This document shows positions 35,949 through 63,814 of a DNA stretch of 64,000 nucleotides, piece after piece. A program made the translations under genes and the position numbers. Position 1 is the stretch's first letter, and the number at the start of each line of letters is the position of its first letter. The notes beneath the pieces are model-generated. The model was not told where the DNA came from, searched no databases, and was given only the letters and a program-made list of their open reading frames with translations. The stretch is from Stieleria maiorica (GTDB taxonomy: Bacteria > Planctomycetota > Planctomycetia > Pirellulales > Pirellulaceae): contig NZ_CP036264.1 of assembly GCF_008035925.1 (NCBI RefSeq), positions 953,774 through 1,017,773 on the forward strand, read 5' to 3'.

Positions 35949-36054
35949 TGACGCTTCCCGCTGGCATGGAATGCCAGCACGAGGCGTAAGCGAGTGGCGG
36001 GTTTTGGTGTTCGGTCTACGCCCGTGTAGTCGGGGCATGTGGCCGCTCGCTGAC

Positions 36055-36183: not shown

Positions 36184-36238
36184 TGACGCTTCTCGCTGGC
36201 ATGGAATGCCAGCACGACGCGTTAGCGAGTGGCAGGCG

Positions 36239-37741: not shown

Positions 37742-37792
37742 GAGATTTCCTTTGCGTCGGTGGAATCGTTTGGTCATTGCCCGATGCAACTA

Positions 37793-37808
37793 AGCGATTG
37801 GTGTGCCA
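37793..37808 (-). promoter_or_regulatory. Sigma-54-type (-24/-12) promoter of rtcB
   Basis: On the minus strand the bases read TGGCACACCAATCGCT, matching the sigma-54 consensus TGGCAC-N5-TTGC-A/T with one mismatch and the required 10-base spacing between GG and GC. A start near 37782 leaves a leader of about 40 bases before the rtcB ATG. The divergent gene is RtcR, a sigma-54-dependent activator, which supports the call. Confidence 0.75.
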
Positions 37809-37918
37809 ATCGTCCGGTCGTAATCGTAAGTCTAGCACTGGGGAAGGCTTAGGGTGGTTCTCTCGAGGTCGGCGGATGTCAAGAGGACAGGGAAGTGTGA
37901 TCATTTTATCGCGTGTTC

Positions 37919-37924
37919 TATAAT
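37919..37924 (+). promoter_or_regulatory. Putative -10 box of rtcR, implying a leaderless mRNA
   Basis: TATAAT at 37919-37924, only 7 bases before the rtcR ATG at 37932, so transcription would begin at or next to the start codon. No Shine-Dalgarno precedes that ATG. A weak -35 (TGTGAT at 37896-37901, 17-bp spacing) is possible. Confidence 0.45.
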
Positions 37925-37931
37925 TATTTCT

Positions 37932-47377: not shown

Positions 47378-48241
47378 ATGGCAAAACAATCTGACTATCC
47401 GATCTCCCGCGATGCCCGACTTGCCCGCGATGCGCCACGGCTTCGCGTGGGCAGCCGTCTGGGAAAATACCGGCTCAACCGACGGATCGGACAAGGCGGT
47501 TTTGCCGACGTCTACGCCGCGACCGACACGTTGTTGTCGACCAAGGTGGCGCTGAAAATCCCCAATTCAAGGTGGGTCACGCCGGAGCTGATCGATGAAT
47601 TTCGACGGGAAGTCAAGCTGACGATCGAGCTGGATCATCCCAACATCCTGCCGATTCGCGACGCCCGGTTCATCGAAGGCCACTTTGTGATCGTGTCGCC
47701 GTTGGCCAAACGAACCCTCAATGACCGGTTGACCAAGCGAATCCGGTTCGAGCTCGGGTTTGAGTTGATGTCGCAGTTGCTCGAAGCGGTTTCGTACGCC
47801 CACGCGATGGGGGTGATTCACTGTGACATCAAGCCCGAGAACATTCTGCTGTTCGACGACGACTGGTTGCGGCTGGCGGACTTCGGCATTGCCAAGGTGG
47901 CCCAGCAAACGATCAACGGTTCGGGGACCGGGACGCTCGGTTACATGCCTCCGGAGCAGGCGATGGGCAAGCCGTCGGCCCGCAGCGACGTGTTTTCGCT
48001 CGGTTTGATCGCCTACCGATTGTTCTCGGGAAAGTGGCCGGAGTATCCCTTCGATTGGCCGTTTCCCGGTGCGGCGACGATCCGCAAACGGGTGCATCCG
48101 GAACTGATCGGCATCATACGAAAATCGGTCGCCGTTAAACCGCGCGAGCGCTATGCCGATGCCAGTAAGATGGCCGCGGAGTGGGAGAAGTCGCGGACCA
48201 AGGCGATTCGACACGTCCTTCGCAAACGAAAATCTAATTAA
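47378..48241 (+). CDS. Small serine/threonine kinase
   Basis: 287 residues, essentially only a kinase domain. Glycine loop GQGGFADVY (about 38-46), Lys60 in KVALK, catalytic loop HCDIKPEN (Cys in place of the usual Arg of HRD, i.e. a non-RD kinase), DFGIA, and GTLGYMPPEQAMGKPS. Non-RD kinases usually need less activation-loop phosphorylation. There is no membrane segment. The stop TAA (48239-48241) is directly followed by the ATG of a PP2C phosphatase, so the two are co-translated, a classic opposing pair. Confidence 0.92.
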   Translation: MAKQSDYPISRDARLARDAPRLRVGSRLGKYRLNRRIGQGGFADVYAATDTLLSTKVALKIPNSRWVTPELIDEFRREVKLTIELDHPNILPIRDARFIEGHFVIVSPLAKRTLNDRLTKRIRFELGFELMSQLLEAVSYAHAMGVIHCDIKPENILLFDDDWLRLADFGIAKVAQQTINGSGTGTLGYMPPEQAMGKPSARSDVFSLGLIAYRLFSGKWPEYPFDWPFPGAATIRKRVHPELIGIIRKSVAVKPRERYADASKMAAEWEKSRTKAIRHVLRKRKSN

Positions 48242-49057
48242 ATGTCGAGCGAGCATCGCGTTTCCACATCGACGCCCCAGTCGCAGCTCTATCTGGAATG
48301 TGAGATGGAGCAGCCGGAGGTTCTCGACCAGGTCCAGGGCCAGGTGTTGGTGCTGGCCCGCACCTGTCCGGGCAAGCAAGATCCCAACGATGACAGCGCC
48401 GCGGTGATCCGCACCTTTGACGACGCCCTGGTCTTGGCCGTCGCCGATGGCGTCGGCGGGTCTCCGTCGGGGCACCGGGCATCCGCCATCGCCATGCAAT
48501 GTCTGGCCGAAAGTTTGCAGTCACAGACCGAAAGCGGCGATCTGCGGCCGTTGATCTTGGACGGGATCGAGAAAGCCAACACCCGCGTGCTGGAGCTGGG
48601 GATCGGAGCCGGGACGACGATCTCGGTGGTCGAGGTGCAGAACCGGGTCGCGCGGGGGTACCAGGTCGGCGATTCGATGGCCTTGGTTGTCGGTCAACGC
48701 GGCGTGATCAAGTGGAAATCGACCTCGCATTCGCCGGTCGGCTACGCCGTCGAATCGGGGATGATGGGCGAGGAGGAAGCGATGTATCACGACGATCGGC
48801 ACTTCGTTTCGAATCTGGTGGGGTCCAAAAGCATGCACATCGAAATCGGTCCGGCGGTCACGTTGGCCAAGCGTGACACGATCGTCTTGGCCAGCGACGG
48901 GCTGTTCGACAACTTGCATCTGGACGAGGTCTGTTCCTTGGCCCGCGTCGGCCCGCCGATCAAACGCATGCGCCGGCTGGTCGATCAGGCGACCGAGCGG
49001 ATGCACACCGAATTGGGCAAGCCAGATGACTTAAGCATCGTGTTGCTCGCGCCTTGA
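48242..49057 (+). CDS. PP2C-type protein phosphatase
   Basis: 271 residues beginning one base after the kinase stop. PP2C landmarks: LARTCPGKQDPNDDSAAVIR with an N-terminal acidic metal site, LAVADGVGGSPSGHRAS with the DGxGG motif, AGTTISVVEVQN, ARGYQVGDSMALVV, and TIVLASDGLFDNLHLDE plus KPDDLSIVLL at the C-terminus. The metal Asp residues look present. It should dephosphorylate targets of the upstream kinase. The gap to MgtE is filled by a GTAGCGGAA palindrome. Confidence 0.9.
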   Translation: MSSEHRVSTSTPQSQLYLECEMEQPEVLDQVQGQVLVLARTCPGKQDPNDDSAAVIRTFDDALVLAVADGVGGSPSGHRASAIAMQCLAESLQSQTESGDLRPLILDGIEKANTRVLELGIGAGTTISVVEVQNRVARGYQVGDSMALVVGQRGVIKWKSTSHSPVGYAVESGMMGEEEAMYHDDRHFVSNLVGSKSMHIEIGPAVTLAKRDTIVLASDGLFDNLHLDEVCSLARVGPPIKRMRRLVDQATERMHTELGKPDDLSIVLLAP

Positions 49058-49167: not shown

Positions 49168-50595
49168 TCAAACGACCAGTCTCGACAGCAGCAACGTCGC
49201 CAACCCCAAGACGAAGAAGAAACCGCACATGTCGGTCACCGTGGTCAACAGCGGGCCGCTGGCCACGGCGGGGTCAAACCCGAATCGTTTGAGCACCAAA
49301 GGGACGACGCCACCGATCGAAACAGCGACCAACGTGTTGGCGAACAAGGCGACGCCGACGACCAGTCCCAAGTAGCCGTTGCCGTCGAAAATCACCGCGC
49401 AGATGGCGACCAGAAACCCCAGGACCGCGCCGTTGATCAGCCCCACGGTGACTTCCTTCCACCAAACGCGGAAGACTTCCGAGGGCCGCACCAGCCCGAG
49501 CGAAAGTTCACGCATGCTGACCGCGACCGCCTGGTTGCCGCTACAGCCGCTCATGTCGCTGATGATCGGCAGAAACACGGCCAGCGCGATCACCGCCTGC
49601 AACGTTTCTTGAAAGTAGGCGATCACTGCCGCGGCACCGATGTTCAGCAGGATGTTGATACTCAACCAGCTCAACCGTCGGCGGGCACGAAGCCACAGCG
49701 GCATCGAACGCAATTCCTCCCCACCGACGATCCCCTGGCTTTTCAGGTAGTCGCTCTCGGCCGCACGCGTTTCTTCGTAATTGACCGCTTCGCGGTGCAG
49801 GATTCCCTTCAGTCGTCCGTCTCGGTCCACCACCGGGACGCCCAGGAAGTGGTGGGCATCGAACAATTCGATCAGATCATCCAGCGGCGTCGTGTCGAGT
49901 ACCGAGATCGGCTCGGTGATCATCAGCTCGGACAGCTTGGAACCGCGCCGGACGAACAGCAGGTTTTGCATCGGCAGCACGCCGACCAGGGCATCGTCAT
50001 GGTCGCACACGTAGGCGTAGCGGACGTCGAAATCGCTGTAGATGTCGGCGTTCTTGTTCAGCTCCGCGATCACATCGGCGACGGTCATGTCGGGTGTGAA
50101 GCGGAGCATTTCCAAGACCATCATCCCGCCGGCGACGTCGTCGTCGTAGGACGCCAGTTGGCGAGCGGCGTCGGCTTCGACGACCGGCAGCACGTTCAGA
50201 ATGGCCGCCGCCTGCTGGTCGCTCAAATCGCCCAGGACGTCGGCCTGTTCGTCGCTGGGCAATTCCTGGACGATCGCCGCGGCGGTGTCCGGTTCCAGTG
50301 ATGCGATCGCATCGGCCGCCTGGACTTCCGGCAGGGCCGCGATCAAATCCGCGGCGTCTTCGGCATCGAGTTTCTCCAGGACCTGGACGCGGTGGTTTTC
50401 GTCCAACCGACTCAGCGCCAACGCCTGATCGGTCGTCGTCAGTTCCGAAAGGAACTCTTCCAAACTCTCCGGATCGCCCAGTTCGGCCAGGCGGGTCAGT
50501 TCTTCCCAGGGACGATCGGAAACGGCTACATCGCCGGCTTGCGAATCGAATCCATCGTTCGCTTCGATCGTGTCCGGTTCGTTTGGTGTCTTCAC
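49168..50595 (-). CDS. mgtE: MgtE-type magnesium transporter
   Basis: 475 residues from GTG at 50595, which has AAAGG about 10-14 bases upstream. Longer readings into the upstream repeat are rejected. The N-terminal MgtE helical domain (ELTRLAELGDPESLEEFLSE; EDAADLIAALPEVQAADAIA) is followed by two CBS domains (RYAYVCDHDDALVGVLPM; ISVLDTTPLDDLIELFDAHH), then five membrane helices (LSINILLNIGAAAVIAYF; PLLTTVTDMCGFFFVLGLAT). MgtE imports Mg2+ and is gated by cytoplasmic Mg2+ through the N and CBS parts. It sits next to corA (same strand). Confidence 0.94.
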   Translation of the reverse strand: MKTPNEPDTIEANDGFDSQAGDVAVSDRPWEELTRLAELGDPESLEEFLSELTTTDQALALSRLDENHRVQVLEKLDAEDAADLIAALPEVQAADAIASLEPDTAAAIVQELPSDEQADVLGDLSDQQAAAILNVLPVVEADAARQLASYDDDVAGGMMVLEMLRFTPDMTVADVIAELNKNADIYSDFDVRYAYVCDHDDALVGVLPMQNLLFVRRGSKLSELMITEPISVLDTTPLDDLIELFDAHHFLGVPVVDRDGRLKGILHREAVNYEETRAAESDYLKSQGIVGGEELRSMPLWLRARRRLSWLSINILLNIGAAAVIAYFQETLQAVIALAVFLPIISDMSGCSGNQAVAVSMRELSLGLVRPSEVFRVWWKEVTVGLINGAVLGFLVAICAVIFDGNGYLGLVVGVALFANTLVAVSIGGVVPLVLKRFGFDPAVASGPLLTTVTDMCGFFFVLGLATLLLSRLVV

Positions 50596-51043
50596 GGTGC
50601 CAGCCTTTCGTTTGAATCGGTCGAGGGGGCTGTCAGTCTGACGCGGATTCGTGGGCTGGCAAGCCGCGTTGGCCGCCCAGAGGGAAGAATCCGAGCGGCG
50701 GTCCGGGAGGGCTGCCGTCGATCGCGACTCGTTCCCGGACCGCTCAAAATCTGGATTTCGCGGTGGTTCAGAATTCAAGCGGAATGATTCCGCGATGGTT
50801 GGTCGACTCACAGCCGCCTTCGGGCGACGAAACACGAGTGACATCAGCCGATTCGCGCAAGCGTTCGGGCCCCAGCGTCGATGGAGGCCCGTCGATGGAG
50901 GCCCGTCGACGGAGGCCCGTCGACGGAGGCCCGTAGGCTGGCGCCAAACGGCTGATCCCAAGAGGGTTTCGCGGAATCGAAAACGCCAAAACCCTACGAA
51001 CGGACGGCCGGGAAGGGCGGTCGTACATCGCGGGGATCCTGCG
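50596..51043. repeat. Repeat gap between corA and mgtE
   Basis: 448 bp. It holds the inverted third copy of the long dispersed repeat (50742-51000), a 14-bp spacer expansion (GGAGGCCCGTCGAT, four times, 50883-50938), and a REP-like fragment at about 51001-51030. No gene. Confidence 0.85.
50742..51000 (-). repeat. Dispersed repeat, long subfamily, copy 3
   Basis: About 259 bp. Reverse-complemented it follows the 9491-9704 copy throughout, and the spacer between hairpin arms is enlarged by four 14-bp units at 50883-50938. Confidence 0.85.
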
Positions 51044-52126
51044 TCAGCCGCGGCCGATCCAGCCCTTGCGCCAAAAGAAGATCAACATGCCGACGCAGGT
51101 GAGGGACATCACCAGCCACAGCAAGGGATAGGAGTATTGGTAGTGCAGTTCGGGCATGTGTTCGAAGTTCATCCCGTAGATGCCGGCCATGAACGTCAAC
51201 GGAATGAACAAGCTGGCCATGATGGTCAGCACCTTCATCACGTCGTTGGTTCGGTTGGCGACCGACGACAGGTAGGTGTTCATCAATCCGGTTGCCATCT
51301 CACGATACATTTCGGCGACCTCCGATGTTTGGATGCAGTGGTCGTGGGTGTCACGCAGGTACAAACGCACGTCTTCGCCGATCAGCGAATAATCACCACG
51401 GACGAGCGAGTTGACCGCTTCACGTTGCGGCCAGACGGCGCGGCGGAGATTGATCAGCTGGTTCTTGAGTGTGTTCAGCTCGGCCAGGACCTCCGGCGAC
51501 GGATTGCGAATCACCTCGTCCTCCATCGCTTCCAAATCGTTGCCGACCCCCTCCAGCACCGGATAGTACCCGTCCACGATGGTGTCGGCGATCGCGTAGG
51601 CCAGGTAGTCGGCCCCGCGTTTTCGAATGATGCCCTTGCCGCTTTTGATTCGTTTCCGGACCGGATCCAGGATGTCACCGTAGCGTTCTTGGAACGTGAT
51701 CACGTAGTTTTTCGCCAGGACGATGCTGACCTGTTCCATGTCGACGCGATAGCGGGACTGTTCCTCGGGGTCTTTCAAACGCACCATTCGAACGACGATC
51801 AACAGCTGGTCGTCATACAGTTCGGTCTTGGGACGCTGGGGGACATTGACGACATCTTCCAACAGCAGCGGGTGCAGCGAGAAGATCGATCCGATCTTGT
51901 TCATCACCGATCGATCGCCGAATCCTTGCACGTCGATCCAACCGACCGTCTCCGCTTTCAGGATTTCGGGCAATTGATCCAGGTCTTCGATCAGGTGGTC
52001 ATCCACGCTTTGGGGATTGTAGAAAATGCCTCTGACCACCGGTCGCGGCGATTGCTTGGAGATCACCAGGGTGCCGGGCCGGGCGCCGACGCGGGTGTAT
52101 TGTTTCTTGAAGATGCCGGGACTCAT
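51044..52126 (-). CDS. corA: CorA magnesium/cobalt channel
   Basis: 360 residues. The N-terminal cytoplasmic funnel (RPVVRGIFYNPQSVDDHLIE; IDVQGFGDRSVMNKIGSIFS; RVDMEQVSIVLAKNYVITFQ) leads to two C-terminal membrane helices joined by the signature GMN loop (MAGIYGMNFEHMPEL), followed by LLWLVMSLTCVGMLIFFW. GMN marks the selectivity filter for Mg2+/Co2+ in this family. It lies 56 bp downstream of the receptor channel gene on the same strand and may belong to that transcript. MgtE follows after a repeat-filled gap. Confidence 0.94.
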   Translation of the reverse strand: MSPGIFKKQYTRVGARPGTLVISKQSPRPVVRGIFYNPQSVDDHLIEDLDQLPEILKAETVGWIDVQGFGDRSVMNKIGSIFSLHPLLLEDVVNVPQRPKTELYDDQLLIVVRMVRLKDPEEQSRYRVDMEQVSIVLAKNYVITFQERYGDILDPVRKRIKSGKGIIRKRGADYLAYAIADTIVDGYYPVLEGVGNDLEAMEDEVIRNPSPEVLAELNTLKNQLINLRRAVWPQREAVNSLVRGDYSLIGEDVRLYLRDTHDHCIQTSEVAEMYREMATGLMNTYLSSVANRTNDVMKVLTIMASLFIPLTFMAGIYGMNFEHMPELHYQYSYPLLWLVMSLTCVGMLIFFWRKGWIGRG

Positions 52127-52182: not shown

Positions 52183-53313
52183 TTACTGGTCGCTGCCCAG
52201 ATAGCTCTGCACGGTGTCTTCCCAGTCGGACGAGGATGTCTGGTGGAGTAGACTTCGATTGATCGGTTCACGCAATGGACTGTCGCTGGGAAGGGCAAAC
52301 GCGTAACTCTGACGCTCAAACGTGACCGGCAGCACGTAGAGATTGCTCGAATCGGCTTGGAAGACCAGGTGTCGAAGGATCGGTGCGTCGTAGACGACCG
52401 CATCGATGCGCCCCTGGTCCAAATTCTCGAGCGCCGCTTCGACGGTCTGGTACGACCGGAAACGGATATGGTGTGAACGCAAATAGTCCGCCGAGGTCGA
52501 CCCGGCGACCGTGGCGACTTTGACGCGCGACAGATCGCCCGGTCCGGCCACCCGCGAGCGGAGCTGATCGACCGTCAACACCGAAGTGACCGCCGCGGTG
52601 AAGCTGGCGATGATGAACAGACCGGCAAACATCCAGATCAATCCGATCAGCCGACCCGGTACGGTTCGCGGGACCTTGTCGCCATAGCCCACCGTCGTCA
52701 GCGTCACCGCCGCCCACCACAACCCGGCACCGATCCCCCGCACGACCCCGTACTGAAAGTCACCGCCGCGGTGTTTTCGTTCAAAGAAATAGACCGCGAC
52801 CGCACTGATCAACATCGCGAACATCAATCCGGCGAGGATCCGCAGGAACGTGGGCGAGAGGACCGCCTCGATGATCCCCGGCCATGCCGGTCTGCGTTGC
52901 GTGCTGCCGAGTGCGATGCCCAGCCCGGAATGGAAGAACGCGTGCGTGAAATCCATCCGTTTCTCGCGTTCGGCGTTGACGGTGATGGCGGCCACCGCGA
53001 TGTCCACCCGGCCGGCTTCCACCGCGTCGAGCATCTCGTCGAGTGATAGCGATTGGTAGCGAAGCTGGATCTGATGCCCGGACTCCACTTCCAAGTCCGA
53101 CTTGATCTTCTCGATCAGGTCGATGCTGATGCCCTGCCAGCGGCCGTCCGCCTGCTCCATCGCAAACGGTGGGACGCTGCGACTGGCCACCGTCAGCGTG
53201 TCGGGGATCTCGATCGCCGGTGGCGGATCGACCGGTTGTGAAAACGCCACCGGCATCGATGTCGGCAGACCGAACATCACCAAGAGCACCGCCGCGACTG
53301 GTCGAGCGATCAT
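52183..53313 (-). CDS. Ionotropic-glutamate-receptor-like K+-selective channel
   Basis: 376 residues from ATG at 53313 (signal peptide IARPVAAVLLVMFGLPTSM). Domain order matches prokaryotic GluR0-type receptors: periplasmic ligand lobe 1 (LTVASRSVPPFAME; ISIDLIEKIKSDLEVE; ITVNAEREKRMDFT with the ligand-carboxylate Arg), membrane helix M1 (about 156-178), pore helix and filter TTVGYGD (206-212), M2 (VPGRLIGLIWMFAGLFIIAS) ending in FTAAVTSVL, which recalls SYTANLAAF, then lobe 2 (ATVAGSTSADYLRS, AVVYDAP). An amino acid or similar small ligand should open a K+ channel. It overlaps its upstream paralogue (ATGA). Confidence 0.93.
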   Translation of the reverse strand: MIARPVAAVLLVMFGLPTSMPVAFSQPVDPPPAIEIPDTLTVASRSVPPFAMEQADGRWQGISIDLIEKIKSDLEVESGHQIQLRYQSLSLDEMLDAVEAGRVDIAVAAITVNAEREKRMDFTHAFFHSGLGIALGSTQRRPAWPGIIEAVLSPTFLRILAGLMFAMLISAVAVYFFERKHRGGDFQYGVVRGIGAGLWWAAVTLTTVGYGDKVPRTVPGRLIGLIWMFAGLFIIASFTAAVTSVLTVDQLRSRVAGPGDLSRVKVATVAGSTSADYLRSHHIRFRSYQTVEAALENLDQGRIDAVVYDAPILRHLVFQADSSNLYVLPVTFERQSYAFALPSDSPLREPINRSLLHQTSSSDWEDTVQSYLGSDQ

Positions 53314-54572
53314 TGCGATTCTCCCAAGTACCGGTACAACAGATCGCTCCAAGCATCCGTCGCACGATACCGCAACAGTTCCTCGTTGAGTGGTCGCCTC
53401 AGTTCGCTGTCGGGTTTCAACGCGATCGCGTATTCTTGTGAGTTGAACGAAACAGGCAGCACCTCAATGCGATCGTTGAATTCCAACAGCGCAAGGTAGT
53501 TCATCAACGCGCGGTCATACACCACGGCGTCGGCTTTCCCTTCATCGATCGCCCGCATGGCTTCGTCCGGTGTCGCGTACACTCGAAAAGGAATCCGCCG
53601 GCTGCGCAGGTAATCGGCGCTGGTGCTGCCCGACACGGTCACGACGCTGACATGCTGCAGGTCACTCGGGTGAGCGATGCCGATGTCCAATTGCCGAACC
53701 GTCAACGCCGACGCGACGACTCCGGTGATCAGGCTGATGACCGCGATACTGGCCAGCATCGCGATCGTCGCCAACACCCGGCCCCAAATGCTGACCGGTG
53801 CGATCCCCTTGTGCCCCAACAGCACGATGATCGACCACCACATCCCCGTCGAAACACCTTGGCGTCGGCCCTTGCCGAACAGCGTTTCGTTGCGATCGCG
53901 TTCAAACGTCCAGAACAGCCAGCCGCAAAACGCGACCACGCACGCCATGATGATGACGAACAGGATCAAACGGAAACTGAACACTTCACGGATCGACGCC
54001 AACACGCTGGCCCGGTGGTGCCGCGAAACGGCGATCCCCAATCCCGTCGCGTAATGGGGATGACAAAACTCCATCTGCCGGTGGCGTTCGGCCGTCACGC
54101 TGATCGCCGCCACCCCGGCATCGAGATCGCCACGCTGTAACCCCTGTAAGATCTGCTCAAGCGACAATTCACGGAATTCGTATTGCAGATCCAGTTCACC
54201 GCACAGGTTCTTCCACAGCTCGATGCTGATCCCGCTCCAGGTCCCGTCGTTGTTCTTGATCGCAAACGGAGGGCTGTGCTTGGTGCCGACGACGATCGGA
54301 GGTGCCGCGGTGTCTTGGAGGTCTGTGTCTTGTGCGGCATCCGGTTCGGCGGGCACTTGCAGCAGGTTGAGAGACATCGTCGACGTAGCTACGCTCGCCA
54401 GAGCGTGGAAATCGCCGTTAATCCACCTTCTGGCGAAGGTAGCTACGTTTGAACGGACGCACTCAAGCTCAGGACTTGCGTCAGATTCCCGTCCAGCCGC
54501 ACCGTGGGCGTTGCAACCAAGTCCGCTCAGTAGCAAGAGTAGAATCAACCCGATGCGTTGGAACGTCGACAT
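53310..54572 (-). CDS. Ionotropic-glutamate-receptor-like channel with altered pore
   Basis: 420 residues from ATG at 54572 (a GTG at 54575 is possible). Lipoprotein-like signal (LILLLLLSGLGC). Same layout as its downstream neighbour: lobe 1 (IVVGTKHSPPFAIKN, ISIELWKNLCGELD, AISVTAERHRQMEF), M1 (FVIIMACVVAFCGWLFW), M2 (VLATIAMLASIAVISLITGV), lobe 2 (GSTSADYLRSRRIP). The position equivalent to TTVGYGD reads VLLGHKGIAP, so the K+ filter is gone. About 25 residues after the signal (NVATFARRWINGDFHALASV...) come from a palindromic repeat in frame (54384-54447). It overlaps the phosphatase gene by one base and the next channel by four. Confidence 0.92.
   Translation of the reverse strand: MSTFQRIGLILLLLLSGLGCNAHGAAGRESDASPELECVRSNVATFARRWINGDFHALASVATSTMSLNLLQVPAEPDAAQDTDLQDTAAPPIVVGTKHSPPFAIKNNDGTWSGISIELWKNLCGELDLQYEFRELSLEQILQGLQRGDLDAGVAAISVTAERHRQMEFCHPHYATGLGIAVSRHHRASVLASIREVFSFRLILFVIIMACVVAFCGWLFWTFERDRNETLFGKGRRQGVSTGMWWSIIVLLGHKGIAPVSIWGRVLATIAMLASIAVISLITGVVASALTVRQLDIGIAHPSDLQHVSVVTVSGSTSADYLRSRRIPFRVYATPDEAMRAIDEGKADAVVYDRALMNYLALLEFNDRIEVLPVSFNSQEYAIALKPDSELRRPLNEELLRYRATDAWSDLLYRYLGESQ
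54384..54447. repeat. Palindromic repeat embedded in the receptor coding sequence
   Basis: 64 bp with imperfect inverted arms beginning CGTAGCTACGCTCGCCAGAG and ending TTCTGGCGAAGGTAGCTACG. The right arm recurs at 63875-63899 in an intergenic region. Inside the gene it keeps the frame and adds about 21 residues between signal and ligand lobe. Confidence 0.8.
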
Positions 54573-55801
54573 CACAATGGCCCCGTGTCATCCAGGTTGA
54601 TCGGACGGGTTTGCATCGCGGCGATTTGACGTGCGAGTTGTTTGGCGAGGTTTCGCAGCATCACGTTGCCCAGTCGGGGCAGTCGGCGGGTCAGCTTGCC
54701 GAAGTCCTTTCGACCGATCAGTAGTACCCGCGACGGCTCGATGGCGACGAGCGACGCGGTCGACTGCGTTTCCGTCAACAGGGATGCTTCGCCGAAGCAA
54801 TCGCCGGGGGTAAGCTCGCCTTCGACGACGTCCTCGTCGATCACGCGGAAACGTCCATCGAGAACGACGTACATGCCCGTCAATTCGGACTCCATCGCGA
54901 TGAGTTCTTTGCCCGCCGCACACTGGATGACATTGGTGATCGCGACCAGGTGCATCAGCCGTCGAACCGACAGCTTTTTGCACAAGAAGATGCGTTTGAG
55001 ACAATCGATCTTCTTGGGGATGTCCGCGGCCGGATGGTCGTTCGCATCACCCTGGACTTCGACCACGATCGCGGTGATGTTGTCGGCCCCGCCCGATTGC
55101 TTGGCAAATTCGACCAGCGTGTCCGGTTGCGCGATGATGTCCGGTTTGGACATGAAATCGGCGACACAGGAGCTGCTGCCGAAGTAATTGCTCAGTCCGT
55201 CGGAGCAGAGGAGCAGGCGATCGCCGGGGATCAAATCGAACAGCAGCGTGTCGACATCCACGAATTCATGGGGCCCGATGCTGCGGGTCAGCACATGGCG
55301 GTACCGACTGTCGTTGGCCTCTTCCCGCGTCATGTCTCCGGACAGAAACAGCTCGTTGGCCAACGTGTGGTCGCTGGTCAGTTGGTGGACCTCGGCTTGA
55401 CGCAACAGGTACAACCGCGAATCGCCGACGTGTGCCATGACGCCCTTGTTTTCGACCACAACCAACAGCGTTAACGTGGTTCCCATCCCGGCATAATCGG
55501 GAGTCGTTCGGGCGAGTTGATTGAGCCCCTGGCTGGCCTGCTGGACGGCTTCTTCGACCACCTTCAGCACTCGGAACACGCCGTCGGGCGACTCACCGGC
55601 CGACTGGATCAGGTCGCGGTTTTTGGCCAGGTGGTCGGACGCAAATTCGATCGCCCGTTCGGCCGCGACCTCACCGGCACAGTGTCCCCCCATCCCGTCG
55701 CAAACGACATACAATCCCAGGCTTTCGTCGATCAGATACTGATCTTCGTTCCCGTCGCGCTTCAATCCCTTGTCACTGATTGCGGTTGCGACGATCACCA
55801 T
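54572..55801 (-). CDS. PP2C protein phosphatase with cyclic-nucleotide-binding-like domain
   Basis: 409 residues from ATG at 55801. PP2C domain intact: AISDKGLKRDGNEDQYLID, VVCDGMGGHCAGEVAAE, GMGTTLTLLVV, AHVGDSRLYLLRQ, LLLCSDGLSNYFGSSS, GGADNITAIVVEV. The C-terminal 110 residues are a CRP-like cyclic-nucleotide domain (IAMESELTGMYVVLDGRFRV; GDCFGEASLLTETQSTASL; ARQIAAMQ). The phosphate-binding Arg usually found after FGE...LL is not present (TETQSTASL), so cAMP/cGMP binding is doubtful. It is first in a unit with two receptor channels (stops and starts overlap). Confidence 0.92.
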   Translation of the reverse strand: MVIVATAISDKGLKRDGNEDQYLIDESLGLYVVCDGMGGHCAGEVAAERAIEFASDHLAKNRDLIQSAGESPDGVFRVLKVVEEAVQQASQGLNQLARTTPDYAGMGTTLTLLVVVENKGVMAHVGDSRLYLLRQAEVHQLTSDHTLANELFLSGDMTREEANDSRYRHVLTRSIGPHEFVDVDTLLFDLIPGDRLLLCSDGLSNYFGSSSCVADFMSKPDIIAQPDTLVEFAKQSGGADNITAIVVEVQGDANDHPAADIPKKIDCLKRIFLCKKLSVRRLMHLVAITNVIQCAAGKELIAMESELTGMYVVLDGRFRVIDEDVVEGELTPGDCFGEASLLTETQSTASLVAIEPSRVLLIGRKDFGKLTRRLPRLGNVMLRNLAKQLARQIAAMQTRPINLDDTGPL

Positions 55802-56202
55802 CGGAACAGACTCGTAGCCGGAAACGGAGTGGAGGAGCCCTTCCACTATAGCGGGTCGGGAAACCCCGAGACAGCACGGGACGATGGCCCACGACGAAAC
55901 AGCCATCAAGGATTCACCAATGGCAACAGTGCACCAGTCGACTACCGCGACTCATTTCACGTCGTTGACGATGCCTTCAAAATGTCGCCGTGTTCTCCGA
56001 ACTCGGCGAGCACAAAATGTCGCCGTGTTCTCCGAACTCGGCGAGCACAAAATGTCGCCGTGTTCTCCGAACTCGGCGAGCACAAAATGTCGCCGTGTTC
56101 TCCGAACTCGGCGAGCGCGAATCAGCAAAGCTTTGTCCCGCGCCGACCTCGGAGAGGACGGCGACTGTCCAGCCCAACCGAAAACCAAGCTGCGGCGGAA
56201 CG
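55802..56202. repeat. Gap upstream of the phosphatase with a four-fold 35-bp array
   Basis: 401 bp, transcribed leftward genes on both sides. Four perfect 35-bp units lie at 55979-56118 (spacing exactly 35; each contains TCGCCGTGTTCTCCGAACTC and ends CGGCGAGCAC). Each unit contains the inverted pair TCGCCG / CGGCGA. The phosphatase promoter must lie between the array and 55801. Confidence 0.85.
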
Positions 56203-59200
56203 CTACGCCGCTTCGCTGATCGACTTGGACTGCGGACGCTCGCCATCGAGCCCCAACGCGGCCGCGGCCGGCATCGAGCGGATGTGCAGGTCGCGTTGTG
56301 GGAACGCGACTTCGATTCCCGCCCGGCGGAACGCCTGGTCGATTTCGGTGTGCAACTGGTGAATCACCTCCAACCGATTGTCCAGCGTCGGCAGATAGGT
56401 TCGCAGAGACAGATTCAGCGCGTTGTCGCCGAATCCTTCGAACGTGGCCACCGATGGCGGATCGTCCAAAATCAGCGGGTGATCGTTGGCCGCTTTCAGC
56501 AAGATCTCGCGGGCCTGTTCGGTGTCGCTGCCATAGGCCAGACCGACATTGATCACGATCCGATTGATCTTGTCCGAAAGGGTCCAGTTGAGCAATCGGC
56601 CGGTGATGAACTCCTTGTTCGGGACCACGTACTCTTTGCGGTCCCAGTTGGTGATCGACGTGGCCCGGATGCGGATTCTGGAAACCACGCCGGTCACGTC
56701 ATCGACCGTCACGACATCGCCGACGCGGATCGGACGTTCGAGCAAAATGATCAGCCCCGCCACGAAGTTGGCAAACATCTCCTGCAAACCGAACGCCAAA
56801 CCGAAGGTCAATGCCGTCGCCAGCCACTGGATCTGGGACCACTGCAACCCGATCGTTGAACAGGTGGCGATCGTTCCGGCCAGCACGATCGCATAACTGA
56901 CCAAGGTCGTGATCGCGTAACGGACCGACGCGTCGACCGGCAACTGCTGCAGCACCGAAATCTCCAGCAACCCCGGACCGTTCTTGGCCAACACGAAAGT
57001 GACGAACGCGATCAGGATCGCCAACGCCAGATCCGAGGCGGTGACGACATCCGAACGCCCGGCCGTCGATTCGATCGACCCGGTCGATTCCGCCGCTACA
57101 TCGGCACCGGGAATCATGCCGACCGCCGCCGTTGCGTCCGCCGGTGACGATGCGGCAACCGTTGGGGGCGTCGATCCGCCCCACAATTCGTACTTGTCCA
57201 ACATCCCCAGCGCCGGCAACACCTGCACCCAAATGCACCACAGACCGATCACCGACCCGGCCACCAATGCGGTGGTGACCAGACGCTTGGATTGCAGGCT
57301 GTGTGCGGTGATGTCATTTTCCGGGGTCGAGGTGACGATGCCCGCAACCGATTGTCGGCCGTCGTCCTCGCTGCCCGCCGTGCCCGCGGCCGCCGCCGCG
57401 GCGCGCTGCCGCGATTGTGCGATGCTGAGTGAGCGTCGACGCAGCAACAACAATCGCAACAACATCGAACGCAGCACGAACAGGCTGGAGACGAACAGGG
57501 CGGTGGCAAAGACACGCCAGAACAGGACTTCGGCCGTGTAGTAATACCCAAACGTCGCCAGCAAGCCCAAGGTCAGCGGAACGCTGGCCGCCGCAAGGCA
57601 CCAGCCGTATCGAAGTCGGCTGACCCATTCGGACTTGTGCGTCGTCAGGTAGTCGCGAAGCATTCCGGCGGGGCTGAACAATCGGTACAGGGACACCGCC
57701 AACACGATCATGCCGGCGATGTACGCCACACGCTCGACCGAATTGCGACCGTGGGACGAATCGGTCACCGATAGCATTCCCGTGATGAAGACGATCGGCA
57801 ACGCGATTCCGAACAGTTGTCGCATTTCGCGCCGCACCGTCGTCGTCACGCTGCGATTCCAGCGGAAGTGGTTTTCCGCCAACCCCTGCGGCCGGCAGAT
57901 CTGACGCAAACACTCCAGCGCCAACCAGATGACGGCGACGGAGGTCATGCCGCGCGAGACGCCCTTGATGAACAGGTCATCGGCGTGGGTGACGCCCAGC
58001 CGCCAGCCCAAGAACGCGAACAGCAGTGGACCGGTCGCGGAAACGATGATCGACAATGTCAGCGTCAGCACCGTGGGGACCATCGTTTGGCAGTTCGCCT
58101 TCATCGCCACCGCACCGGCTTCCTTGATCCGGTCCCGCATGCGTTTGCGCCGCAGCATCAACAGCCCGCACCCGGTGGCGGCCAGCAGGTAGACGGGAAA
58201 ACGGTTTCGGGCATCCTTGATCAGGTGCGCCCCCAGTCCGACCCAGGCTTCGGCATCCAGCAGCCGTTTGTCGCTCGTTTCGATCGAAAAATCGTCGCTC
58301 AGGAAGCGTGCGCTGCGGATCCATAACACCCGCTCGTCGATGTAGTTTTCGTACTCGGCGGTCAGCTTGATGATCTGGCGGTCTTCAAAGTCCAGTTCAA
58401 CGAGCGCATCGAAATACTGGTTGCTGGTGCGGATCAGCGCATCGAGATACTCCTGCTTTCGCGCCAGCAGTTCTTGTGCGGCCGACCGCAGCACCGCGGT
58501 ATCGCGACCGTTGGTCGATTGCTGGATCATCTCCGCGATGCAGGATTCGGTGTCCGCGATCGCTTGCCGTTCGTCGTCGTATTCAAACAGCTCGTACTGG
58601 GCATCGTTGATCAGTGTCTGGCGATCGGCGACGTCGATTTTTCGCTGCCGCATATCGGGCAGAGTGGAACGTTGCTTTCGAAGCAGGGCGCCCACCGAAC
58701 TGGTCAGCCCGACCAAGTCGACCTTCTTTTGGGTCGTCTTGAATTGCTTGGCCAGCTTCTCGTGAGCCTCGGTCGCGGCTTTGAGCTCCTGTTCGGCGGT
58801 CGCCAGTGAGTCGGCGACCCGTTTGGCACTTTCGGCCAGGGCCTGGTTCTGTTCGGCAAACGCCCGCAGTGACGGTGCCGTCTCGATCGCTTCCAGCTTT
58901 GCCTTGCGGACCGATTCGGCCGCGGCGATTTCCCGCGCCTCCTTGATCCGCAGCCCCAACGCCTCGAGACTCTTTTCGGTGAACATCACCTGCTTGGCCG
59001 CCAGGTCCGATCGCAGCTGGACAATGCCGAGTGCTTCTTCGGCGTCGTACTTGGCCAACTCCGCTTCGAGCGTCGGTCCTTCGTTTTCCAGCAGATGTTG
59101 GCTGGTCTCGGCACGCACCTGTCGGGCGGCGGTCAAGGCCGAGGTCTCGCCGGAGGTGTCGGCCACGCGATTGTGCCGGCTCTCTTCCAGCTTCTGTTGC

Positions 59201-59730
59201 AACGCCACCAGCTTCGATCGAATCTCCTTGCGACGCTGCGAACGCGTCTGGGATTCCGATTCGGCCGCCAAACGATTCTGTTTTTGTGTCGCCAACTGCA
59301 ATTCCAGTTGGGCCAACTGTTGTTCCAGTTCGACCAGCTTCAACTGCGGGTCGATGACCGGTTGTTTGGTTTTCAGTTCCTCCAGTTTGCCGCGGATGCG
59401 TTCGACCCGGGTGCCGGCGGATTCCGCTTCTGCGACCAACTCGTCACGCTGTCGGTTCAGCTCGCCGGCGGCCTTCAGATCCGCCAGCGCTGCTCGATAC
59501 AAATCCACCACGGAGGTGCGGACGTCGGCCGCCAGTGTCGCATCCTGCTCCGCCGCCTGCAGCCGTTGATTGATCTGTTCGGCCGTCAGTGAAGCGGTTT
59601 GCCGCGCCGGTTGGGCCGCCGCCTGGCCGATCATGTCGTCCTCCGTGCCGAACACACCCGGCGGTGTGGTCAGCCCCCAGGCGAGGACCAATGTGGCAAC
59701 GATCCGATGATTGATCGACTGGTTGAACAA
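56203..59730 (-). CDS. MscK-type (KefA-like) large mechanosensitive channel 1
   Basis: 1175 residues starting at a TTG at 59730 backed by a strong AGGAGG six bases upstream, giving signal peptide VATLVLAWGLTTPPGVFG. A long periplasmic coiled region (about 40-500, Lys/Glu/Gln-rich heptads such as LKLVELEQQLAQLELQLATQ) precedes about eleven membrane helices. The MscS core is at the C-terminus: FGLAFGLQEMFANFVAGLII, LERPIRVGDVVTVDDVTGVV, TNWDRKEYVVPNKEFITGRL, FPQRDLHI. It should release solutes under membrane tension; MscK-type channels also respond to K+. Divergent from a paralogue at 60380. Confidence 0.93.
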   Translation of the reverse strand: MFNQSINHRIVATLVLAWGLTTPPGVFGTEDDMIGQAAAQPARQTASLTAEQINQRLQAAEQDATLAADVRTSVVDLYRAALADLKAAGELNRQRDELVAEAESAGTRVERIRGKLEELKTKQPVIDPQLKLVELEQQLAQLELQLATQKQNRLAAESESQTRSQRRKEIRSKLVALQQKLEESRHNRVADTSGETSALTAARQVRAETSQHLLENEGPTLEAELAKYDAEEALGIVQLRSDLAAKQVMFTEKSLEALGLRIKEAREIAAAESVRKAKLEAIETAPSLRAFAEQNQALAESAKRVADSLATAEQELKAATEAHEKLAKQFKTTQKKVDLVGLTSSVGALLRKQRSTLPDMRQRKIDVADRQTLINDAQYELFEYDDERQAIADTESCIAEMIQQSTNGRDTAVLRSAAQELLARKQEYLDALIRTSNQYFDALVELDFEDRQIIKLTAEYENYIDERVLWIRSARFLSDDFSIETSDKRLLDAEAWVGLGAHLIKDARNRFPVYLLAATGCGLLMLRRKRMRDRIKEAGAVAMKANCQTMVPTVLTLTLSIIVSATGPLLFAFLGWRLGVTHADDLFIKGVSRGMTSVAVIWLALECLRQICRPQGLAENHFRWNRSVTTTVRREMRQLFGIALPIVFITGMLSVTDSSHGRNSVERVAYIAGMIVLAVSLYRLFSPAGMLRDYLTTHKSEWVSRLRYGWCLAAASVPLTLGLLATFGYYYTAEVLFWRVFATALFVSSLFVLRSMLLRLLLLRRRSLSIAQSRQRAAAAAAGTAGSEDDGRQSVAGIVTSTPENDITAHSLQSKRLVTTALVAGSVIGLWCIWVQVLPALGMLDKYELWGGSTPPTVAASSPADATAAVGMIPGADVAAESTGSIESTAGRSDVVTASDLALAILIAFVTFVLAKNGPGLLEISVLQQLPVDASVRYAITTLVSYAIVLAGTIATCSTIGLQWSQIQWLATALTFGLAFGLQEMFANFVAGLIILLERPIRVGDVVTVDDVTGVVSRIRIRATSITNWDRKEYVVPNKEFITGRLLNWTLSDKINRIVINVGLAYGSDTEQAREILLKAANDHPLILDDPPSVATFEGFGDNALNLSLRTYLPTLDNRLEVIHQLHTEIDQAFRRAGIEVAFPQRDLHIRSMPAAAALGLDGERPQSKSISEAA

Positions 59731-60379
59731 AGCAGGCCTCCTGCCTGAAACGTGACTCCGTACTCGTGCGGCGGTCGGTCAGACCCGCCAAGTCGACACT
59801 ACGAGACCGAGGCAAACGGCGGCAAGCCGATTCCGACGTGAAACTTCAAAAGTCATCGGCAGGTTTTGGATCAGACAAACGCCGGCTCGAAGGGCTTCAC
59901 TCTAAGCGAGGGGCAATTGGTGGTGCTGGCGTGAATCTGAGCCGCAGTAAATCCCCTCGCTCCAACGGCAACCTCTTCGGGGCTCTCAGTGGGCAGAGGT
60001 GTTTACACAATCTACCATGGCTCCCTTCTCCCCCGGCTTTGCGGGGGAGAAGGGCTGGGGATGAGGGGGCCAGCGGCCTGTCAAAAGCTACTGATCTAAC
60101 GCGCCGACGGCTCAGCTAGGCGGCCACTCACCCTCAGCCCCTCTCCCCAAAACAGATCGCGGCATCTGACACGCCGCGATCAAGGTTTTTCGCGCGATCT
60201 GCTTTAGGGAGAGAGGAGCCATGTCGTGGTTTAGGATACGACGTGTATCGACACCAAAGCCTGGCAGGTGGGTTTGCCACATCGAAGCGAAACACATAGA
60301 AAACCTCCAAGCCGGCAGATGATCAGATCCTGTGTGGCGTCTGAGCCGATCTCCCACGCAACAAAAACCGTTGACCGAT
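59731..60379. other. Divergent gap between two MscK-like genes
   Basis: 649 bp, promoters of both channels expected. Two palindromic features: a hairpin at 60023-60054 (CCCTTCTCCCCC / GGGGGAGAAGGG, 8-base loop) and a larger imperfect one at about 60137-60220 (CCTCTCCCC...CAGATCGCG against its complement). No coding potential. Confidence 0.7.
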
Positions 60380-63300
60380 ATGCCATTTTCGCTGTCCGCC
60401 GTTCGCTCGCTTTGCTTGCAATGCTTTGTCGTCCTCGCGGTGCCGCTGGCCTGCCTGACCTGTCACGGCCAGGAAACGCCGCCTGACGCCCCGCCAGCCA
60501 CTCTGCCGGCCACTCCGATCGTTGCCTCCAACGGCCCCACGACTGATTCGATCGATGCGGAACTGGCGGCGCTGGAACTGAAATCGGAGCTGGATGCGGC
60601 AACCAAGACGCGGCTGGTGTCGATGCTGCAGCAAGCCAAAAAGACGCTGCAGCAGGGGCAGACGTACGAGGAATTGGCGAATCAATACTCCCAGATGATC
60701 GGCAGCGTGGCGGCCCGCCAAGCGGAGCTCCAAGCCAAACTGGACGCCTTGTCGGGTGCGGAACCCACCCTCGCCGAGGGGCTGACGCTGGCCGACGCGA
60801 CCCAGAGTTTGGCCACGTTGAAAGCCGAATTGGCGACCGCTTCCAAACAGGTAACCGATCTGACGGCCGAGTCGACGCGGCGGCGGACCCGACTGGGCGA
60901 AATCCCGGGACTGCTGTCCGATGCGGAGAAAGAACGTGCCGACGTTGCCGGGCAACAGGCTCAGCCGGCACCGGTCAACGAATCGGCGATCGAGTCCCAG
61001 ACGCGCAAAACCTTGCTGGCGGCACGCGGCGAAGAATTGGCCGCTCGGATCGAGGCGCTCGAGAACGAGCAAGCGGCCTACACCGCGACCGTGGATTTGT
61101 TGCCGTTGGAACGGAAGCTGGCCGAAGCGAACGTGACACAACTGCGTCGCCAAACCGAGTTGCTGCAGGAAGCGATTTTGGAGATGCAGAAGGACCAGGT
61201 CAATGCGACCACGGCGGATCTGAAACAAACCGTCGCCTCGGTTCCCAAGAGTCTGCGAACGCTGGCCGAAAGCAACGTCGAACTTGCCGAGTTGCAGCGG
61301 CAACTGATCGAGCAGACTGCCACGACCCAACAGAACTTGTCGGGCGTCCAATCCGCGATGGATGATGTCAAAGCGGATGCAAAATCCTCCAAGGAGCGAA
61401 TCGATGCGATCGGGTTGACCGACGCCTTGGGCGTGATCCTTCGCCAACAGAGGGAAGAAGCGAAAGCACTGCGAAACAAATTCCGTCCCCGTGACGATCT
61501 GACCAAGAAGGTCGAAGAGTACCAGCTCAGCACCTTCAAGATGGAAGACGAGCTGGCCGACATCAACCAGTGGCTCGATCAGCGTGAAGCGGTGCAAGTG
61601 GACTGGGACAGCACGGAGATCGCATGGGGCGACTTGGGGCTTGACGAGGCCGAGTGGGTGCTCAAACGCAAACGCCGCAAACTGCTCGAAGACACGCTTC
61701 ATTCACAGAACTCCGTCTTGCAGTCCATGCTGACCAGCGACACGCAACGTCGCGAATTGATTTTGTTGATCGACGAATTCACCGCGGCCATCGATGCGAA
61801 TCTGTTTTGGACCAAAGACGCCCCGACCATCTCGATCGGCGAGTTGGCTGTTGCTCCGGAACTGATTCAATGGGTCAGTGCGCCGGCGTCTTGGGTAGGC
61901 GTGGTGCATCAGATGGTCTTGACGGTGACCTTGGAACCGCTGGCGTCGCTGGGATTGATCCTGCTGACCTTTGCCGTCTTGTTCGGGCGGGGGCGGGCGC
62001 GGGCCGCGATCAAGCACGAAGGCGAGGAGGCGACCAAGGTCAACGTCGGGTTTATGTCGACGGTCCGTGCCATGGTGGCCACCTTCGTCACCGCCATGGT
62101 TTGGCCGGCGTGTTTGGGAACCTTCGCGTTTCTGTTGGTCAAAACCTCGCCGGCCGATCCGTTCGTCCGCGGGCTGGGAAACGCGTTGGCCATGGTCGCG
62201 CTGTACGTGTCGTCGCGTGAACTGCTTTCGAAAGTCTGTCGCGACAAGGGGGTCGCCGAGTGCCATTTCGGATGGTCGGAAAAGCTGCGACGACATCTTC
62301 GTCGGCATCTGCGTTGGTACACCTGGGTGGGCGGGGGCATCGTCCTGACCATGGGCGTCTTCTATGAGCATCCGGATGCCGAAGTTCGGATCTTCGCGAT
62401 CCGGATCATGTCGACGGCACTGTTTCTGGTGACGGCCGCCTTTCATCATCTGATGCTACGTCAGAAGAGCCCGCTGCATGTCGAATTCGTTCTTTACAAT
62501 CCGAGTTCGTTGTTCTACCGCATGCGAAAACTGATCTGGGCGATCGCCGTGCTGGCGCCCATCGTGTTCGCCTTCATGGCGTTGGCCGGGTACCTGGAAA
62601 CCACCTTCCGATTGGGGCATTCGTTGCAGTCGACGTTCCTGCTGTTGGTGGTGATCGTCCTCGGCCACGGATTGCTTTCTCGCTGGCTGATGCTGCGGCG
62701 ACGCGATCTGGCACGCCGCCGAGCGATGGAGCAACGCGATCGAAAGCTGAAGGAATTGCAAGGCAGCGAAGACAAGGCGATCGCCGATCAGGTCGGCATC
62801 GTGCTCGAAGAAGAAAGCGCGGGCGATCTCGAAAAACTGGACGAACAGGGTCGGCAGACCGCGGTGGTGTTCGCTTCGACGCTGGGGCTGATCGGGTTCG
62901 GGCTGATCTGGCACGACCTCGTTCCCGCACTGGCGTTTTTCGACGACTTCTCGCTGGGGACCGTTGGGACGGGAGAGAATATCGAGTCGGTCAGCCTGTT
63001 GGATGTGATTTACAGTCTGCTGTGCATCGCGCTGATGGTCTACGCGACCGGTGTGGTCCCGCGTGTCTTTGAATTGCTGGTCCGCGGCAGGACGGAGCTC
63101 GATCCCGGGGCACGCTACGCGATCTCGACACTGTTGCGATACGTGATCATCATCGCCGGCAGTTTTATCGTCATGAACTTGCTGAGCGTCCCCTACAACC
63201 AACTCGGTTGGCTGCTGGCCGCCGCCTCGGTCGGTCTGGGATTCGGATTGCAAGAAATCGTCGCCAACTTCGTCTCGGGGATCATCCTGTTGCTGGAACG

Positions 63301-63814
63301 CCCGGTCCGCGTCGGCGATGTCGTCACCATCGGCGACACCACCGGAATCGTCTCGCGGATTCAGATGCGCGCCACCACCGTGACCAACTGGGATCGCAAA
63401 GAGTTGGTGATTCCCAACAAAGACCTGATCACCGAAAAACTGCTCAACTGGTCGCTCACCAACGTGATCAACCGACTGACCATCAACATCGGTGTGGCCT
63501 ATGGCAGTGACCCCGATCAGGTCCGCGAGCTACTTTATCAAGTCGTAAAAAACCATCCGCAAGTGCTGACCGATCCCGCGCCGTTGATCAATTTCGACAC
63601 CTTCGGCGACAGTTCGCTGAATTTCGTCGTCCGCTTTTTCCTCGAAAAATTGGACAACCGAATCGAGGTCACGCATCAGATCAATCGTGAGATCGCCGAG
63701 GCGCTGGCCAAGGCCGGGATCACGATTCCGTTCCCCCAGCGCGACGTGCACCTGGACATCAACGGCGACGACGCCGCGCTGCCGCTGTCCCTGCGACGCG
63801 GCCGCGATCATTAG
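60380..63814 (+). CDS. MscK-type (KefA-like) large mechanosensitive channel 2
   Basis: 1144 residues from ATG 60380, directly in front of a signal peptide (RSLCLQCFVVLAVPLACLTC); a start at 60332 would add an unrelated leader. A periplasmic coiled region (about 60-480: LEAKL, QTYEELANQYSQMIGSVAAR, ATASKQVTDLTAESTRRR) precedes membrane helices and a C-terminal MscS core: GLGFGLQEIVANFVSGIILL, LERPVRVGDVVTIGDTTGIV, TNWDRKELVIPNKDLITEKL, ITIPFPQRDVHLDI. The core is close to that of the divergent paralogue, while the periplasmic part differs. Two such channels side by side suggest different tension or ionic thresholds. Confidence 0.93.
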   Translation: MPFSLSAVRSLCLQCFVVLAVPLACLTCHGQETPPDAPPATLPATPIVASNGPTTDSIDAELAALELKSELDAATKTRLVSMLQQAKKTLQQGQTYEELANQYSQMIGSVAARQAELQAKLDALSGAEPTLAEGLTLADATQSLATLKAELATASKQVTDLTAESTRRRTRLGEIPGLLSDAEKERADVAGQQAQPAPVNESAIESQTRKTLLAARGEELAARIEALENEQAAYTATVDLLPLERKLAEANVTQLRRQTELLQEAILEMQKDQVNATTADLKQTVASVPKSLRTLAESNVELAELQRQLIEQTATTQQNLSGVQSAMDDVKADAKSSKERIDAIGLTDALGVILRQQREEAKALRNKFRPRDDLTKKVEEYQLSTFKMEDELADINQWLDQREAVQVDWDSTEIAWGDLGLDEAEWVLKRKRRKLLEDTLHSQNSVLQSMLTSDTQRRELILLIDEFTAAIDANLFWTKDAPTISIGELAVAPELIQWVSAPASWVGVVHQMVLTVTLEPLASLGLILLTFAVLFGRGRARAAIKHEGEEATKVNVGFMSTVRAMVATFVTAMVWPACLGTFAFLLVKTSPADPFVRGLGNALAMVALYVSSRELLSKVCRDKGVAECHFGWSEKLRRHLRRHLRWYTWVGGGIVLTMGVFYEHPDAEVRIFAIRIMSTALFLVTAAFHHLMLRQKSPLHVEFVLYNPSSLFYRMRKLIWAIAVLAPIVFAFMALAGYLETTFRLGHSLQSTFLLLVVIVLGHGLLSRWLMLRRRDLARRRAMEQRDRKLKELQGSEDKAIADQVGIVLEEESAGDLEKLDEQGRQTAVVFASTLGLIGFGLIWHDLVPALAFFDDFSLGTVGTGENIESVSLLDVIYSLLCIALMVYATGVVPRVFELLVRGRTELDPGARYAISTLLRYVIIIAGSFIVMNLLSVPYNQLGWLLAAASVGLGFGLQEIVANFVSGIILLLERPVRVGDVVTIGDTTGIVSRIQMRATTVTNWDRKELVIPNKDLITEKLLNWSLTNVINRLTINIGVAYGSDPDQVRELLYQVVKNHPQVLTDPAPLINFDTFGDSSLNFVVRFFLEKLDNRIEVTHQINREIAEALAKAGITIPFPQRDVHLDINGDDAALPLSLRRGRDH

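Follow-up and report, generated by a model that had tools for sequence, protein, structure and literature searches.

The marine planctomycete Stieleria maiorica has three genes in a tight row on the minus strand, encoding a PP2C phosphatase and two receptor channels with the layout of the bacterial glutamate receptor GluR0, which are here called ch1 and ch2. They lie in a 64,000-nucleotide stretch of contig NZ_CP036264.1 (positions 953,774 to 1,017,773 of the forward strand). This whole stretch is the window, and all coordinates refer to it. Genomes and loci of relatives are given as G and L numbers. The genes and the elements within them are:

54572..55801, minus strand: PP2C Ser/Thr phosphatase with a C-terminal domain of the cyclic-nucleotide-binding (CNB) type, 409 amino acids (open reading frame and Pfam)
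54686..54922, minus strand: the CNB-type domain, with Ser at the Arg position of the phosphate-binding cassette (Pfam and an alignment of 13 orthologues)
53310..54572, minus strand: ch1, receptor subunit of GluR0 layout with a non-K+ filter, 420 amino acids from its ATG
53805..53822, minus strand: altered filter of ch1, LLGHKG (Lys255; Lys in 18/18 loci)
52183..53313, minus strand: ch2, channel of GluR0 layout with a K+ filter, 376 amino acids
52678..52695, minus strand: K+ selectivity filter of ch2, TVGYGD (26/26 ch2 loci)
53320..53324, minus strand: GGAGA, a Shine-Dalgarno-like site for ch2 within the final ch1 codons (13/15 junctions)

The original prediction, made from the sequence alone, described three leftward genes overlapping by 1-4 bases, and this is what is found. 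The phosphatase stop and the ch1 ATG have one base in common (TGATG), or four if ch1 starts at an alternative GTG at 54575, and the ch1 stop shares four bases with the ATG of ch2 (ATGA). It was also proposed that the three-gene order be looked for in related genomes, and there the linkage recurs with tight junctions in other genera. Among 11 junctions between the phosphatase and a channel gene, eight are ATGA with a 4-base overlap and three are TGATG (window included; possible GTG three bases earlier), while GGAGA lies within the 3' end of ch1 at 13 of the 15 ch1-ch2 junctions displayed. Since identical order and tight junctions recur in other genera, the arrangement is not due to chance, and the junctions of the relatives give good comparative evidence for translational coupling.

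The GluR0 layout claimed for both channels is borne out by Pfam, a sequence search of the PDB and AlphaFold2, and for ch1 also by Foldseek. In Pfam, SBP_bac_3 matches ch1 (1.2e-22) and ch2 (1.4e-19), and for Lig_chan, with a cut-off of 30.8 bits, ch2 is above at 50.9 and ch1 just below at 28.4. Lobe 1, M1, pore helix, M2 and lobe 2 are visible in both AlphaFold2 models, which have a mean predicted local distance difference test score of 83.8 (ch1) and 81.7 (ch2). The Foldseek comparison, which covers the ch1 model, finds AMPA receptors (best E 2.3e-19) and the GluR0 ligand core from Nostoc, 2pyy; the same ligand core of a Nostoc GluR0 homologue is the top match of ch1 and ch2 in the PDB sequence search. 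Judged from the models and from the sidedness of GluR0 homologues, only short loops of the channels would face the cytoplasm. An Arg and an Asp that we take, from GluR0 and iGluR (ionotropic glutamate receptor) structures, to belong to the ligand site (Arg163 and Asp353 in ch1, Arg116 and Asp309 in ch2) are kept in 17/17 ch1 and 22/22 ch2 rows. In GluK2, R523 is a ligand contact, as described in a passage of PMC3866869. In ch1 the agonist Arg is followed by a clade-specific R-H-x3-[ED]-F-C-H-P-H, in which Cys170 and His173 are present in 17/17 rows, His171 in 16/17 and His164 in 14/17. Counted from the agonist Arg, this motif would fall in the region of GluK2 E524 and K531, which passages of PMC3866869 and PMC10705692 give as dimer-interface residues. 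The lone ch1 of genome G155 (L116) lacks His164 and His171; this is a weak lead, because two paired copies of ch1 (L111, L068) are also without His164. The nearest named relatives are Stieleria and Rhodopirellula strains. No such channel other than ch1 and ch2 was found in the 9.89-Mb genome, and the only other SBP_bac_3 protein found there is L002 (725 amino acids), in which SBP_bac_3 is fused to a dicarboxylate symporter (SDF).

By their pore sequences the two channels are not equivalent, as a K+ filter is present in ch2 only. The pore stretch of ch2 reads TTVGYGDKVP, and TVGYGD is found in 22/22 tree rows and in four further loci, that is in 26/26 ch2 loci. The corresponding stretch of ch1 reads VLLGHKGIAPVS, with LLGHKG in the place of TVGYGD and thus no K+ filter, and 18/18 ch1 loci conform to G-[HN]-K-[GS]. 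The loop also differs in length. In alignment A4, the stretch that runs from WW as far as the filter Gly measures 6 residues in 17/17 ch1 rows and 8 in 22/22 ch2 rows and 15/15 other homologues; compared with these 37 rows, ch1 has lost two residues of pore loop length. The best PDB sequence match for the membrane part of ch1 is KcsA, with HKG aligned to YGD and two residues omitted. Measured against the GluR0-type Group 1, ch2 has both the layout and the TVGYG filter; ch1 has the layout and is not placed in the group, because the TVGYG filter is lacking. As the pore loop of iGluRs inserts from the cytoplasmic side, according to a passage in PMC6385376, the filter Lys of ch1 would face the cytoplasmic mouth. 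The original prediction missed this altered filter, and it also missed the MscK-like, CorA and MgtE neighbours treated below.

Altered filters are seen elsewhere too. Two Campylobacterota loci (L073, L074) have a GluR0-type channel with G-D-K replacing G-Y-G (TFVGDKHIS, TFLGDKNIS), in each case the sole such channel found in a genome that is small and perhaps incomplete; this Lys-containing filter apparently arose independently. In Bradyrhizobium (L076) the only such channel found in the genome has the filter TQAGAAANAP.

A tree was made by a quick method with the filter columns excluded and includes 17 ch1 and 22 ch2 rows; ch1 and ch2 each form a single clade with a Shimodaira-Hasegawa-like approximate likelihood ratio test (SH-aLRT) value of 100. 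Warnings attached to the tree concern the remaining homologues, which include long branches and six sequences of unusual composition; ch1 and ch2 themselves are starred. Since ch1 is monophyletic with the filter columns excluded, the simplest account of the altered filter is a single origin in the ch1 clade, followed by retention. The ratio of nonsynonymous to synonymous substitution rates (dN/dS; six pairs each) is 0.07-0.19 for ch1 and 0.10-0.20 for ch2, which shows purifying selection on ch1 as on ch2. Distances in ch1 and ch2 are correlated (r 0.94, 15 pairs), which common ancestry alone could explain. The two proteins are about 39% identical, and a recent tandem duplication was considered and rejected on account of their separate clades.

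The occurrence of the genes was followed with ch2 and phosphatase queries in 241 family genomes each, with ch1 queries in 149 family genomes and 396 order genomes, and with a scan of GTDB genome contigs using a ch1 alignment. Duplicate genome records (e.g. L059/L123) were counted once. This gives 18 distinct ch1 loci in 18 genomes, not counting a broken ch1 relic (L044), and 26 ch2 loci, two of them in G141. Single channels from Pirellulales (L046, L047, L055-L058, L117, L159, L160) and the cut-off L051 do not count as ch2, with at most about 43% identity; of these, L056-L058, L159, L160 and L051 are also left out of A4. L155-L158, which were found later, are absent from the tree; whether they count as ch1 or ch2 was decided by their best BLAST match. 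The ch1 reading frame is intact across lobe 1, pore and lobe 2 in 18/18 loci, and ch2 directly follows ch1 in 16 of them; in Roseiconus (G148) the two are on different contigs. With every candidate scored, eight genomes have ch2 without ch1 (G080, G045, G091, G210, G213, G286, G344, G350), compared to one of the 18 ch1 genomes with ch1 but no ch2. This asymmetry is the main reason why ch1 looks like a partner subunit. Comparison of the genomes establishes the genetic pairing of ch1 and ch2, and it is from this pairing that we infer a heteromer.

The three genes belong to a larger cluster, with the order MscK-like gene, phosphatase, ch1, ch2, CorA and MgtE. Its other features and those nearby are:

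51044..52126, minus strand: CorA Mg2+/Co2+ transporter, 56 bases downstream of ch2 (TIGR00383)
49168..50631, minus strand: MgtE Mg2+ transporter, start uncertain, reading frame open to 50961 (TIGR00400)
56203..59730, minus strand: MscK-like mechanosensitive channel, encoded upstream of the phosphatase and with an uncertain start (Pfam)
60332-63814: second MscK-like gene, divergent from the first
55978-56117: 35-nucleotide unit in four tandem copies, in the gap that separates the MscK-like gene from the phosphatase
54383..54448: 66-nucleotide dispersed inverted repeat inside ch1, in the linker between signal peptide and lobe 1

CorA scores 323.8 bits with TIGR00383, above the cut-off of 200.75, and MgtE 265.3 bits with TIGR00400 (cut-off 232.75). 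CorA is directly downstream of ch2 in 15/26 loci (in the draft genome G063 its reading frame is interrupted), and the phosphatase is in the same cluster as ch2 in 11/26, so that ch2 is linked to CorA more often than to the phosphatase. Both the ch1-ch2 and the ch2-CorA order are found in a second family as well. MgtE is at the equivalent place in L119, L120, L122 and L123. An MscK-like gene lies upstream of the phosphatase in 9/13 phosphatase loci (window included), and in S. tagensis (L042), where no such phosphatase was found, it lies upstream of ch1. The two MscK-like proteins have about 30% identity in relatives, and a long minus-strand reading frame at 60323-61702 is probably a mere shadow of the second gene. 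Units similar to the 35-nucleotide tandem repeat are scattered across the genome. The 66-nucleotide inverted repeat occurs in at least 40 places of the genome (best 40 of 290 candidates scored); the ch1 linker that bears it is about 50 residues shorter in L119-L122 and has a different-looking segment in JC639 (L059). Elsewhere in the window, at 34557-39572, there is an RNA 3'-phosphate cyclase gene together with an RtcR-type sigma-54 regulator.

The phosphatase was described as a PP2C with a cyclic-nucleotide-type domain, and Pfam agrees (PP2C_2 1.3e-13; cNMP_binding 1.2e-15, 57.7 bits), with the qualification that the CNB domain has no Arg at the position aligned with the canonical one. Full-length orthologues with at least 58% identity occur 13 times among the 241 family genomes. 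The motifs GNED, DGMGGH, SDGLS and GG[AS]DNITA are present in 13/13, so the metal-binding and catalytic set of a PP2C is complete in all of them. With the Stp1/IreP-type NCBIfam model NF033484 the protein reaches 217 bits, below the cut-off of 230. A channel gene directly follows the phosphatase in 11 of the 13 orthologues, an order that recurs in five genus groups; in G141 what follows is a broken ch1 relic and then ch2. Two genomes with an orthologue, G138 and G082, have no such channel that could be found. A 42% identical homologue in G215, outside the 13, also has no adjoining channel. The C-terminus of the window protein is DDTGPL (54575-54592), and a DDTGP[LM] tail is found in 12/13 orthologues. 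FHA domains prefer Leu at +3 of a phospho-Thr, and the tail could be a putative docking site of this kind, with phospho-Thr and Leu at +3.

It was originally suggested that the three genes form one coupled sensor module in which ion flux and phosphatase act together. Coupling and linkage stand, by comparison of the relatives. A strict three-gene module was rejected, as some relatives have the phosphatase and the channels apart, which the original prediction had named as evidence against itself: 2/13 phosphatase genomes have no channel found and 9/18 ch1 loci have no such phosphatase upstream. Because of these two counts the phosphatase is a facultative and not an obligate part of the sensor. 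It would also have little physical target in the channels, since these expose only short cytoplasmic loops. More likely targets are CorA, MgtE or the MscK-like channel, in their cytosolic portions, or else proteins belonging to a PknB-type kinase and second PP2C encoded at 47378-49057; orthologues of these two genes are also found beside the cluster in L120 (S. sedimenti) and L041 (Roseiconus).

With a probability of roughly 0.5, the locus encodes a K+ receptor that is gated by an amino acid and is probably a heteromer, with ch1 as a modulatory partner of ch2, and that belongs to a planctomycete ion-homeostasis cluster for K+, Mg2+ and turgor. In this scheme ch2 is predicted to be an ordinary amino-acid-gated K+ channel subunit. 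With its retained ligand domain and its shorter G-[HN]-K-[GS] pore loop, ch1 would most likely modulate ch2 within mixed tetramers, either by reducing K+ flux or by altering selectivity. The opening ligand would be an amino acid in the periplasm, and the resulting K+ flux would shift the membrane potential. Membrane potential is the driving force for CorA, and the shift may in this way be tied to CorA-driven Mg2+ uptake and to turgor control, with the whole cluster balancing K+, Mg2+ and turgor. The metal-dependent phosphatase is presumed to be made together with the channels and probably sets the phosphorylation of a cytosolic partner, not of the channel itself; possible partners are a transporter domain or the targets of the nearby PknB-type kinase. 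A more far-reaching version can be put forward tentatively. Here, Pirellulales would have a two-subunit ionotropic receptor that joins a K+-filter subunit to one with a short, Lys-containing pore loop, as an independent counterpart of pore-modifying iGluR subunits, by which external amino acids would act on K+/Mg2+ balance and protein phosphorylation.

Several observations weigh against this interpretation. Six of the loci are those of the window and of five very near relatives, which means that the counts do not represent independent events. In G155, which has ch1, no ch2 was found with every candidate scored. No CorA lies directly downstream in 11/26 ch2 loci, and half of the ch1 loci (9/18) are without the phosphatase upstream. 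Coupling is not universal, as in L155 (Lacipirellulaceae G263), the sixteenth ch1-ch2 pair, a gap of about 140 bases separates the two genes. A scan of the locus for promoters and terminators returned no promoter and was uninformative. Finally, an altered filter need not mean a partner, as in L073 and L074, and in Bradyrhizobium L076 no partner was found either.

It is quite conceivable, if somewhat less than probable, that the phosphatase has no functional relation to the channels beyond a common transcript. Its absence from half of the ch1 loci and its presence in two genomes without a channel found would fit this, as would G138, where the phosphatase retains the MscK-like neighbour alone. 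However, in 11/13 orthologues, from five genus groups, the next gene downstream is a channel gene joined by ATGA or TGATG, and the phosphatase of Roseiconus, where ch1 lies on a different contig, overlaps ch2 in its place, again by ATGA. Slightly less likely is that ch1 forms a homomeric receptor of its own, co-transcribed with ch2 without assembling with it, which would select weakly or differently or would not conduct, the cluster being only a set of co-regulated ion-homeostasis genes. The Campylobacterota and Bradyrhizobium channels, each alone in its genome as far as found, are examples of altered filters without a partner, and the separate clades, the 39% identity and the one genome with ch1 alone point the same way, but ch2 stands directly behind ch1 in 16/18 loci, and ch2 is alone in eight genomes against one for ch1.

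A third possibility, in which the CNB domain takes up a cyclic nucleotide and thereby switches a phosphatase that tunes the channels, is very unlikely. In its favour are the Pfam match, a sequence similarity to PKG domains and an Arg adjacent to the expected position in 4/13 orthologues (three before it, one after, window excluded). It was rejected as the leading idea on the cassette residues. In the Glu/Arg register, which is presumably that of PKA and CRP, the aligned Arg position is Ser in 13/13 and the canonical Glu is present in 8/13, so cyclic-nucleotide binding in the usual mode is unlikely; in addition, little of the channels is cytoplasmic. That ch1 is a decaying ch2 duplicate can be dismissed, as a pseudogene is contradicted by the dN/dS of at most 0.19 and the invariant filter Lys, and it is not a recent duplicate. 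In favour of decay are the lost filter, the broken relic in G141 (C17), the dispersed repeat inside ch1 of the window and stops listed within several match rows; these stops lie at match ends, given the open frame in 18/18 loci, and ch1 of most relatives shows no internal stop or frameshift.

Set beside known systems, the channels share with GluR0 of Synechocystis and Group 1, as described in the main text of PMC2950845, the signal peptide, lobe 1, M1, pore loop, M2 and lobe 2, and in ch2 also TVGYGD. They differ in that there are two paralogous subunits per cluster, one without a K+ filter, in a setting of PP2C, MscK-like and CorA genes. Going by the description in the same text, ch1 can be set beside the Group 2 prokaryotic iGluRs, which have a GluR0-like topology and a pore not recognisable as K+ type; the membrane part of ch1 has KcsA as its best PDB match, with two residues missing. 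The Nostoc structure 2pyy, in which the Arg and Asp of the amino-acid site are kept as in ch1 and ch2, is of the ligand domain only. Eukaryotic heteromeric iGluRs have a related fold (Foldseek, ch1) and, by analogy, one subunit with a positive charge in the pore loop, whereas ch1 and ch2 are without M4 and the N-terminal domain and their heteromer is putative. The Q/R site of GluA2 is a known case of a pore-modifying iGluR subunit. The phosphatase resembles the Stp1/IreP type in its full PP2C motif set and differs from it in the extra CNB-type domain and in the NCBIfam score below cut-off. Of the 22 putative prokaryotic channels described by Ger et al. (2010), 12 have K+ filters and the remaining 10 have pore regions of another kind (PMC2950845); the main text of that paper contains none of the terms planctomyc, Rhodopirellula, Blastopirellula and operon. 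An operon of this composition was thought to be undescribed, and no description of one was found in open-licence papers.

Prokaryotic glutamate receptors are regarded as simple ancestors of the neuronal receptors. If the interpretation favoured here is true, a conserved subunit pair with divided pore roles would be a case of subunit specialisation in bacteria. The recurrent company of an Mg2+ transporter, a mechanosensitive channel and a phosphatase would give the function of such receptors a concrete physiological setting, and the paired channels hint that bacteria, too, may build mixed-subunit receptors.

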